From assembly GCA_009838635.1 (NCBI GenBank), contig VXRE01000135.1, forward strand, positions 1 through 48,744: a stretch of 48,744 nt of DNA, written 5' to 3'. The stretch's first letter is position 1. Each line of letters begins with the position of its first letter. The position numbers were made by a program, and so were the translations under genes. This document shows positions 33,324 to 35,760 of the stretch, in pieces. The stretch is from Acidimicrobiia bacterium (GTDB taxonomy: Bacteria > Actinomycetota > Acidimicrobiia > Spongiisociales > Spongiisociaceae). Below the pieces are notes generated by a model. It was not told the DNA's origin and made no database searches. It saw nothing but the letters and a program-made list of their open reading frames with translations.

Positions 33324-34466
33324 ATGCGAATCCTCTTGCTGAACGGCCCCAACCTCAACCTCCTGGGCACGCGCGCCCCGGAGGTCTACGGCTCGGACAC
33401 GCTCGAAGACGTGGCCGAGCAGTGCCACGCGCACGCCGCCCGGCTCGGTCATCGCCTAGAGGACTTCCAGTCCAATCACGAGGGAGAGTTGATCGACGCC
33501 ATCCACACCGCGCGGGAGACCGCTGACGGGATCGTGTTCAACCCCGGCGCCTTCTCCCACACCAGCTATGCCCTCCATGACGCCATAGAGGCGGTCGGGA
33601 TTCCTACTGTCGAGATCCATATCTCCAACGTCCGGGAACGCGAGCCGTGGCGGCGCATCTCGGTGACCGAGCCGGGCTGCGCGTACCAGGTCTTCGGCCG
33701 GGGCGTCACCGGCTACCTGGACGCCATCTCCCACCTCCACTACCGGGATCTCCATCCGCCTCTCACCCTGTCGTACGGGCCGCACGCGGACCAGGTAGCG
33801 GATCTGCGCCTCCCCGATGCTCCCGGACCCCACCCGGTGGCGGTCCTGGTCCACGGTGGCGGGTGGACCGACCCCTACACCCGCGACCTGATGGACGGGG
33901 CCGCGGTCGACCTGACCGCGAGGGGAACGGCCACCTGGAGTGTCGAGTACCGGCGGATCCCGCCGGTGGGAGGTTGGCGTGACTCCATGGCGGACGTCTC
34001 CGCCGCGGTCGGCGCCCTGTCCTCCATCTCCGGCGACCATGGGCTCGACCTGGGCCGGGTGACGGTGATCGGGCACTCCGCCGGCGCCCAGTTGGGGTTC
34101 TTCGCCGCCAAGAACGCCTCAGTGCGTCCGGCCGGCTTCGTCGCGCTGGCGGGGATGCTCGACCTGGGGAACGCCGGTTCGGGCTTCGACGAGATCATCT
34201 CGGCCTTTTTGGGTGATGACCGCCACGCTCGCCTCCCGATGGTCGACCCCATCCGCGCAATTCCCTCCGGAGTTCCGACGGTGGCGGTGCACGGCCTCCT
34301 GGACCGATCAGTGCCCCCGGATCAGAGCCGCCGGTTCGTCGAGGCGGCCCGAGCGGCCGGCGACCGATCCCGCCTGGTCGAGGTGCTGGAGGCCGACCAC
34401 ATGGACGTGATCTCGCCCCTCGCCGCCGGATGGGAGGAGGTGGCGCGCGCCTGCCTGGGCCCCTAG
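33324..34466 (+). CDS. aroQ: Type II 3-dehydroquinate dehydratase fused to an alpha/beta-hydrolase (esterase-like)
   Basis: This is a 380-residue two-domain protein. Residues 1-~142 are a complete AroQ, which converts 3-dehydroquinate to 3-dehydroshikimate. Present are NGPNLNLLGTR (Arg17), the catalytic Tyr22 (EVYG), QSNHEGELIDAI, Asn73 and His79 (FNPGAFSHTSYALHD), VEIHISNV with Glu97 and His99, and Arg110. Residues ~148-380 are an esterase-type alpha/beta-hydrolase of the Aes/kynurenine-formamidase-like group. Its oxyanion motif is HGGGW (177-181), the nucleophile is Ser252 in GHSAG, and the likely acid and base are Asp327 (HGLLDRSVP) and His359 (ADHMDV). Both active sites look intact. Ordinary AroQ is about 145-150 residues, so the second half is an addition. 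Confidence 0.92.
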   Translation: MRILLLNGPNLNLLGTRAPEVYGSDTLEDVAEQCHAHAARLGHRLEDFQSNHEGELIDAIHTARETADGIVFNPGAFSHTSYALHDAIEAVGIPTVEIHISNVREREPWRRISVTEPGCAYQVFGRGVTGYLDAISHLHYRDLHPPLTLSYGPHADQVADLRLPDAPGPHPVAVLVHGGGWTDPYTRDLMDGAAVDLTARGTATWSVEYRRIPPVGGWRDSMADVSAAVGALSSISGDHGLDLGRVTVIGHSAGAQLGFFAAKNASVRPAGFVALAGMLDLGNAGSGFDEIISAFLGDDRHARLPMVDPIRAIPSGVPTVAVHGLLDRSVPPDQSRRFVEAARAAGDRSRLVEVLEADHMDVISPLAAGWEEVARACLGP

Positions 34467-34470
34467 CCGG

Positions 34471-35760
34471 CTACGGGCCGAGCGCCGTGATAGGCGTCAC
34501 CTGGACATCGTCTGACCGGCGGTAGGCGGGGCCGGTGGAGGTGACCACCATCAGGAGGGCCAAGTCCTCCACGCGATCCGCGGCCACTTTGTCCCGTAAA
34601 CGCCGTAGGGACTTGGCAGCTTCGTCCACTACGTCGGGCGCCGGGCTCAGCTTGACCTCGACCGCTATCCATCTGCCGTCGTCTCGCTCGATGACAGCGT
34701 CCACCTCGAGGCCGGTGTCGTCGCGGTAGTGGAACACCTCGCCGCGATCCGGCTGGCTGTAGATGCGGAGGTCGCGCACGACCAGCGACTCGAACAGCAG
34801 ACCGAACGTCCCTGGATCGGCCAGCAACCTCTGGGGCGTAGCACGCAGCATGGAGGCAGCCAGCGAAGGGTCGACGAAGTGGCGCTTTGGCGCCCTTCTC
34901 AAGGTGGCCCGTGAACGAAGGCCTACCGACCAGGCAGGCTGATTCTCCACCAGGAAGACGCGCTCCAGAGCCTCCAGGTAGGCGTTGACGGAGGAACGGC
35001 TGGCGACACTCTTGCCGCCCATGTCCGAGATGATGGTGGTCGCCTTCGCTTCCGTGGCAACGTGACGCGCCAGCGATCGCATCAGCCTTCTCACCGCCGC
35101 CGGTCGGTGCCTGACACCGCTCGCCGACGGGATGTCCAGCCGGACGACCTCGCTTACGTAATCGGCCACCGCCAAGCGAGCATCGGCTTCCTCGAGTGCC
35201 AGGCTCCCGGGCCATCCTCCGACGCAAATGGACGACGCCACCTCGCGCAGCCCGACGACCGACGGCAGGGCGAACATGGCCTCGCCATCGAACAGGCGCC
35301 GCAGCGACAACAAGCCGGTGGACCCTCCCGACTCGTAGAGTGACATCGGCCGCATCAACACCCGGGCGATACGACCCACTCCGGTATGCCGGGTGATGTC
35401 GTCGTGAGGAGCCGCGGAGCCGGTGAGGACGAACTGCCCGAACCGCGCCCGGTCGTCGCACTCCCGGCGCACCCTGTTCCATATCCGGGGCGCGTTCTGC
35501 CACTCGTCGAGCAAACGGGGTGTGGCGCCCTGCAACACGGCTGACGGGTCTGCCTCGGCCATCAGCAGCGTTGCTTCATCGTCAAGGCGAGCCTCGCTGC
35601 GGGCGACATGGCGCGCCGCCCAGGTCTTGCCGCATGCTCGGCAACCCTCGACAAGCACGGCCCCACGCCGCCGGAGCGCGCTCCCGATCTCGTTGTCGGC
35701 AAGACGCGGGAGGTACCCGGGCATGGTGAGCGTCCGTGAGTTGCGTTGCTCGGGTCCCAT
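34471..35760 (-). CDS. DUF4143/AAA_14-type ATP-binding protein
   Basis: This is a 429-residue protein. The N-terminal P-loop ATPase (AAA_14) has Walker A GCRACGKT at residues 39-46 and Walker B LLDEWQ, followed by FVLTGSAAP. The C-terminal half is the DUF4143 domain with a nuclease-like core (FGLLFESLVVRDLRIY, then HYRDDTGLEVDAVIE and WIAVEVKLS, the D-(E/D)-x-K pattern of PD-(D/E)XK folds). The family is widespread, often laterally transferred, and has no firm function. The start is ATG 35760 with AAAGGAG upstream at long spacing; ATG 35724 is possible. Two kinds of tandem repeat lie upstream. Confidence 0.9.
   Translation of the reverse strand: MGPEQRNSRTLTMPGYLPRLADNEIGSALRRRGAVLVEGCRACGKTWAARHVARSEARLDDEATLLMAEADPSAVLQGATPRLLDEWQNAPRIWNRVRRECDDRARFGQFVLTGSAAPHDDITRHTGVGRIARVLMRPMSLYESGGSTGLLSLRRLFDGEAMFALPSVVGLREVASSICVGGWPGSLALEEADARLAVADYVSEVVRLDIPSASGVRHRPAAVRRLMRSLARHVATEAKATTIISDMGGKSVASRSSVNAYLEALERVFLVENQPAWSVGLRSRATLRRAPKRHFVDPSLAASMLRATPQRLLADPGTFGLLFESLVVRDLRIYSQPDRGEVFHYRDDTGLEVDAVIERDDGRWIAVEVKLSPAPDVVDEAAKSLRRLRDKVAADRVEDLALLMVVTSTGPAYRRSDDVQVTPITALGP

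Follow-up and report, generated by a model that had tools for sequence, protein, structure and literature searches.

In the window analysed here, that is the whole stretch of 48,744 nucleotides of contig VXRE01000135.1 from an Acidimicrobiia bacterium, a type II 3-dehydroquinate dehydratase (AroQ) and an alpha/beta-hydrolase seem to be encoded by a single gene. The locus raises the question of whether such a fusion is real and, if so, which reaction a hydrolase may carry out in permanent association with an enzyme of the shikimate pathway.

The Fusion Gene and Its Product

The fusion, proposed in an earlier sequence-only reading, is real: one frame from ATG to TAG, with 0 internal stops, fills exactly the interval reported in Table 1, both Pfam domains are recognized in its product, and the junction is conserved in relatives. 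The AroQ half reaches 180.3 bits with DHquinase_II (cut-off 23.3) and 175 with NCBIfam NF003807 (cut-off 130), while its score of 167.5 with TIGR01088 is slightly under the cut-off of 169.85. The hydrolase half spans approximately residues 148–376, and residues 163–340 are assigned to the BD-FAE/alpha-beta hydrolase type (E 1.9e-14), with 54.1 bits for PF20434 (cut-off 26.8) and 31.2 bits for PF07859 (cut-off 25). The residues cited in the earlier reading (R17, Y22, H99, and R110; HGGGW, S252, D327, and H359) are all found at the positions given there and, together with N73, H79, and R106 of AroQ, complete both catalytic sets; judged by sequence, both active sites appear intact, as had been claimed.

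Table 1. Features of the fusion gene and of its product (window positions).
Feature	Position	Strand	Remarks
aroQ-hydrolase fusion gene	33324..34466	+	380 aa, coordinates include the stop codon; same junction in congeners
AroQ (type II 3-dehydroquinate dehydratase) domain, residues 2-138	33327..33737	+	PF01220, 1.9e-53
Arg126 codon, GRG motif of AroQ	33699..33701	+	Fixed in fused proteins, variable in stand-alone AroQ
Inter-domain linker, residues 139-150	33738..33773	+	End of helix 128-143 into strand 147-150
Alpha/beta serine hydrolase domain (BD-FAE/Abhydrolase_3 type), residues 151-380	33774..34463	+	Pfam, AlphaFold, PDB profile
Oxyanion-hole motif HGGGW, H177-W181	33852..33866	+	HGGFW in most other fused proteins
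Nucleophile elbow GHSAG, Ser252	34071..34085	+	Motif and alignment
Catalytic Asp327	34302..34304	+	97/97 fused proteins with letters there
Catalytic His359	34398..34400	+	97/97 fused proteins with letters there

The source is a metagenome-assembled genome (MAG), so that a spurious joining of two genes by misassembly or a frameshift has to be considered; it was rejected and can practically be dismissed, because ten genomes of a single genus and 101 across the order share the junction, in G021 on a contig of 3.0 Mb. In particular, nine congeneric genomes have it intact (67–93% identical), as do, at lower identity (about 39–68%), further genera and families, which is far more than chance would give; the full-length proteins of the nearest relatives, Acidimicrobiia bacterium MAGs, are 84–93% identical. 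A conserved stop between the domains, named earlier as a possible refutation, does not occur in the relatives.

The AlphaFold model of the window protein as a monomer (pLDDT 96.4, pTM 0.94) has a well-defined linker, and on these grounds the two domains probably pack rigidly as one body. It is plausible that hydrolases decorate the AroQ dodecamer, the model being that of a monomer.

The genes surrounding the fusion in the window (oxidoreductase, AAA protein, DnaE, arylsulfatase) offer no clue to its function. The AAA/ATPase-like gene (34471–35760, reverse strand) is convergent with the fusion gene and is present at that spot in some congeners, while in others it is absent and DnaE lies directly downstream; it is probably a recent insertion or loss.

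Distribution in the Order

The order was sampled with 138 genomes, from which 101 fused proteins were aligned, a few of which are truncated at contig ends. It may correspond to UBA5794, a sister of Actinomarinales with a sponge-associated group among its members (PMC12008989). The fusion occurs in 101 of these genomes, in six families and mostly at the native aroQ locus, while a stand-alone AroQ is found in families f4 and f5, in genus g25, and in two genomes of g42. AroQ is single-copy in each of the 138 genomes with few exceptions, type I dehydroquinase was found in none of them, and no second stand-alone aroQ, the presence of which the sequence-only reading had proposed to check, is found in the window's genome. 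The fusion is thus the sole dehydroquinase and hence biosynthetic; a takeover by a second AroQ or by a type I enzyme was rejected, since none was found.

The preceding enzyme, 3-dehydroquinate (DHQ) synthase (AroB), is encoded in 129 of the 138 genomes but was not found in the window's MAG (G000). A broken shikimate pathway in this organism was rejected given that all nine congeners have the enzyme; the absence is most likely an assembly gap, which would mislead automatic pathway calls. The DHQ synthase frames of family f1 are about 510–530 aa long in most genomes, and one of 517 aa (L178, G026:C28) has a shikimate-kinase-like start, an apparent AroK-AroB fusion; two fused shikimate pathway enzymes, AroK-AroB and AroQ-hydrolase, thus seem to exist in the window's lineage. 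In G121, a stand-alone AroQ lies beside a second DHQ synthase (L071, G121:C44; L072, G121:C103) and the fused gene carries an in-frame TAA inside its AroQ half, which may be due to a secondary aminoshikimate-type cluster accompanied by decay or to a sequencing error.

Conservation and Origin of the Fusion

R17 and Y22 are invariant in the 99 fused proteins with letters at these positions, and the other AroQ catalytic residues in 101/101; on the hydrolase side, Asp and His are present wherever the alignment has letters, and Ser252 in 91 of 100. The spacing from Y131 to Y151 is 20–21 residues in all 101 fused proteins. Residue 126 is arginine in all 99 motif-matched fused rows, as well as in two g42 proteins that were apparently once fused, and can be H, R, E, K, M, L, Q, or F in other stand-alone AroQs. 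Both halves are under purifying selection; the dN/dS of the hydrolase half ranges from 0.07 to 0.42 and is 0.25 in the window's genus.

Fused and stand-alone aroQ genes share synteny in much of the order, being placed between a lipoate-ligase-like and an aspartate-aminotransferase-like gene; the wider shared neighbourhood consists of ABC transporter, lipoprotein, lipoate-ligase-like, aroQ, aspartate aminotransferase, and SerC-like genes, where the names of the neighbours were assigned by reading their sequences. This common neighbourhood indicates that fusion or loss took place in situ. Family f1, which includes the window, has neighbours different from those typical of the order. Four changes between the fused and the stand-alone state are required by the AroQ tree, and the hydrolase tree follows the same family divisions; the trees are unrooted and therefore, in general, gain is indistinguishable from loss. 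In genus g42, G101 and G102 encode the fusion, while G099 and G100 encode stand-alone AroQs that retain Arg126, most simply explained by a recent loss of the hydrolase domain. Elsewhere in the phylum, a fused protein with an intact AroQ half, again the sole AroQ, occurs in family f84; a horizontal transfer is suggested by its hydrolase, which clusters with genus g53 of family f8 (96/97 support).

Reciprocal Decay of the Two Halves

The hydrolase half has decayed in some genera of the order. Six genomes of g35 have Gly in place of Ser252, with purifying selection still acting there (dN/dS 0.22); g34 has Glu at this position, and the whole domain is wrecked in g58. In all three genera the AroQ half is intact. 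Elsewhere in the phylum, nine proteins of four families (f46, f91, f98, and f69) show the opposite condition: they have the same architecture and have lost the AroQ active site, with deletion of the catalytic lid in f46. The degenerate half of these pseudo-AroQ proteins is not recognized by Pfam; it is detected by a profile of the fused AroQs in seven of the nine, and profile-profile comparison assigns it to AroQ with 96–99% probability in all four families. When the f46 protein is modelled by AlphaFold from an alignment that includes fused relatives, its N-terminal half is still AroQ-like (pLDDT 93.8 for the model). The hydrolase serine is kept in all nine proteins, and the whole triad in the eight that are not truncated at a contig end. 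A separate AroQ is encoded in every pseudo-AroQ genome except G301, which is 89% complete and in which none was found.

A Probable Link of the Hydrolase to Kynurenine Metabolism

The strongest clue to the hydrolase comes from the genomic setting of its relatives. In four genomes of f91 and in f98, the pseudo-AroQ-hydrolase gene, which often overlaps a neighbouring gene, clusters with those of a salicylyl-CoA 5-hydroxylase-family flavoenzyme (NF006101), an acyl-CoA dehydrogenase, an SDR, an LLM oxidoreductase, an enoyl-CoA hydratase (NF006107), and a Rid protein, a set which we take to be typical of aerobic anthraniloyl-CoA degradation. In G649 (f98), genes for tryptophan 2,3-dioxygenase, a kynureninase-like protein, and a member of the benzoate-CoA-ligase family also belong to the cluster, all of them within 10 kb of the hydrolase. 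The f46 gene adjoins acyl-CoA dehydrogenase and LLM genes of the same type of cluster, and that of f69 a TrpB-like gene.

The pathway from tryptophan to anthraniloyl-CoA in these clusters requires a formamidase. In bacteria this can be KynB, a Zn-dependent kynurenine formamidase of the cyclase type with the motif HxGTHxDxPxH; neither this motif nor another HGGxW hydrolase was found in the pseudo-AroQ cluster loci examined, and KynB was rejected as the alternative enzyme.

Within the order, the native locus of genus g25 encodes AroQ, a separate alpha/beta hydrolase (HGGYW, GHSAGG), and a kynureninase-like protein, the last two genes being about 3 nt apart (L060:5001-8264, where an SDR gene intervenes, and L061:3033-5417). 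These genomes have no tryptophan dioxygenase, and the operon suggests a salvage of formylkynurenine to anthranilate. Many f8 genomes carry a dioxygenase-kynureninase gene pair with no formamidase adjacent to it. A profile of the hydrolase has Drosophila kynurenine formamidase (4e11) as its third distinct PDB hit (4.3e-15).

The recurrence of kynurenine and anthraniloyl-CoA genes around the relatives argues for descent from formamidases, and the window protein is read here, with a probability of roughly 0.55, as a dehydroquinase joined to a hydrolase of kynurenine-formamidase descent. We infer a formamidase activity for the hydrolase half; that it persists in the window's own lineage is above all presumptive. 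The N-terminal AroQ is the only 3-dehydroquinate dehydratase of the organism and would catalyse the third step of the shikimate pathway, and a short linker, constant in length, would fix the orientation of the C-terminal serine hydrolase. This hydrolase would derive from an alpha/beta-hydrolase kynurenine formamidase, converting N-formylkynurenine to kynurenine and formate. The AroQ side would then contribute to the supply of chorismate for anthranilate, formamidase and kynureninase would release anthranilate from formylkynurenine, and both halves would serve tryptophan/anthranilate metabolism. More tentatively, an AroQ fold could be the standing N-terminal partner of a kynurenine formamidase lineage across Actinomycetota, active where it is the sole dehydroquinase, with anthranilate and tryptophan fed from the shikimate and kynurenine sides, and, where another AroQ exists, decaying to a dead scaffold that family profiles do not see.

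Alternative Explanations

The hydrolase could instead be a carboxylesterase/lipase-like enzyme acting, at least in the window's lineage, on a substrate unrelated to aromatic metabolism, in an old accidental fusion that was kept because AroQ lends the hydrolase a stable oligomeric form and because the gene cannot be dispensed with. By Pfam and PDB comparison the domain belongs with BD-FAE/HSL-type esterases; esterases and lipases are among the hits of the PDB profile as well, and two of these enzymes score better than 4e11, the best being the 'carboxylesterase' 9x6a (1.5e-50). Moreover, no tryptophan dioxygenase (PF03301) is found in G000, its nine congeners, or genera g2–g3 of the family, and a sample of G021 (1.2 Mb, 40%), from another genus of the same family, yielded neither kynureninase nor dioxygenase. 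In the order, the dioxygenase is present in 36 of 138 genomes, 14 of which give only partial or short matches, the search being confined to dioxygenases of the PF03301 type, as distinct from the IDO type; seven genomes (G017, G019, G024, G025, G077, G125, and G126) encode dioxygenase-like proteins of ~240 aa in which only the ends of PF03301 match and the middle is missing. Most genomes lacking the dioxygenase nevertheless have a complete hydrolase triad, and the hydrolase domain is wrecked in G131, where the dioxygenase is present; an association of the dioxygenase with an intact hydrolase (18/87 versus 1/34, Fisher p 0.013) is uncorrected for relatedness and comes mostly from one family. The motif is HGGGW in genera g1–g3 and g45, all without dioxygenase, a larger residue replacing its third G in nearly all others and in every dioxygenase-bearing genome. 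Given the missing dioxygenase and the HGGGW motif, the ancestral role may be that of a formamidase while the present substrate may differ in the window's lineage, where a shift to another arylformamide or to an ester is quite possible. Four other families in which an intact hydrolase is accompanied by an AroQ that is catalytically dead but retained as a fold likewise agree with an accidental fusion. However, the tryptophan/kynurenine setting is specific and recurs in f91, f98, and f46, and a separate hydrolase lies beside aroQ in g25, which makes the esterase explanation possible but rather doubtful.

The sequence-only reading had suggested that quinate or shikimate esters might be cleaved by the hydrolase and the product channelled to the dehydroquinase, as a fusion with both sites complete would allow. 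This idea did not hold up and is very unlikely: AroQ is the sole, biosynthetic dehydroquinase, the neighbours in relatives are kynurenine and anthraniloyl-CoA genes and not quinate genes, and the existence of hydrolases without a working AroQ and of AroQs without a working hydrolase, the halves being lost or inactivated independently, is a poor fit to obligate channelling. Equally improbable is a mainly structural or regulatory hydrolase half whose chemistry is dispensable in the order; the substitutions of Ser252 in g35, under continuing selection, and in g34, the wrecked domain of g58, and its absence in f4, f5, g25, and part of g42 are in line with it, but the full triad is present in most fused genomes, including the window's, and the hydrolase serine in all pseudo-AroQ relatives.

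Significance and Comparison with Known Systems

In most of an order there is no dehydroquinase other than the fusion, and so it is not the curiosity of one genome. Three features are unusual: an essential gene is affected throughout the order, the two halves decay reciprocally, and there is a link with tryptophan metabolism. The decay is a natural experiment on enzyme fusion in which catalytic linkage is separated from structural support, and it brings to light a degenerate AroQ domain that escapes Pfam. A function, arylformamidase, is predicted for a group of uncharacterised actinobacterial hydrolases. No characterised example was known to the earlier reading, and none was found in the literature searched; a dehydroquinase-hydrolase fusion is not described in those papers, and Foldseek retrieved no solved structure joining both domains in its top 50 matches. 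The architecture appears to be an undescribed combination of known enzyme families.

Its AroQ half has the full domain (PF01220, NF003807) with all catalytic residues, and the model superposes on the crystal structures of the Corynebacterium glutamicum enzyme (8idr/8idu) at about 1 Å (TM by target 0.90–0.95). In contrast to AroQ, which normally consists of about 145–150 residues alone, the fusion adds a hydrolase, has Arg126 fixed, and has homologues in which AroQ is dead. The hydrolase half shares the HGGG and GHSAG motifs of BD-FAE/HSL-like esterases (PF20434), the GHSAG family of EstDZ2 (PMC5171882), with a domain above the Pfam cut-off; unlike these, the fusion is cytoplasmic and joined to AroQ, and its relatives have a different genomic context. 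With the alpha/beta-hydrolase kynurenine formamidases (Drosophila 4e11–4e15, yeast Bna7) it has in common the fold, the HGG oxyanion motif, and the Ser-Asp-His triad, as well as relatives in kynurenine gene clusters; as far as sequence comparison can tell, it differs in being bacterial and AroQ-fused, in matching esterases about as well or better, and in the absence of the dioxygenase. From KynB it is distinguished as a serine hydrolase in which the Zn-type motif was not found. Fungal AROM and plant DHQ-SDH likewise join a dehydroquinase to another enzyme, but they use a type I dehydroquinase and join steps of one pathway, whereas the fusion of the window joins a type II AroQ to a hydrolase outside the shikimate pathway.
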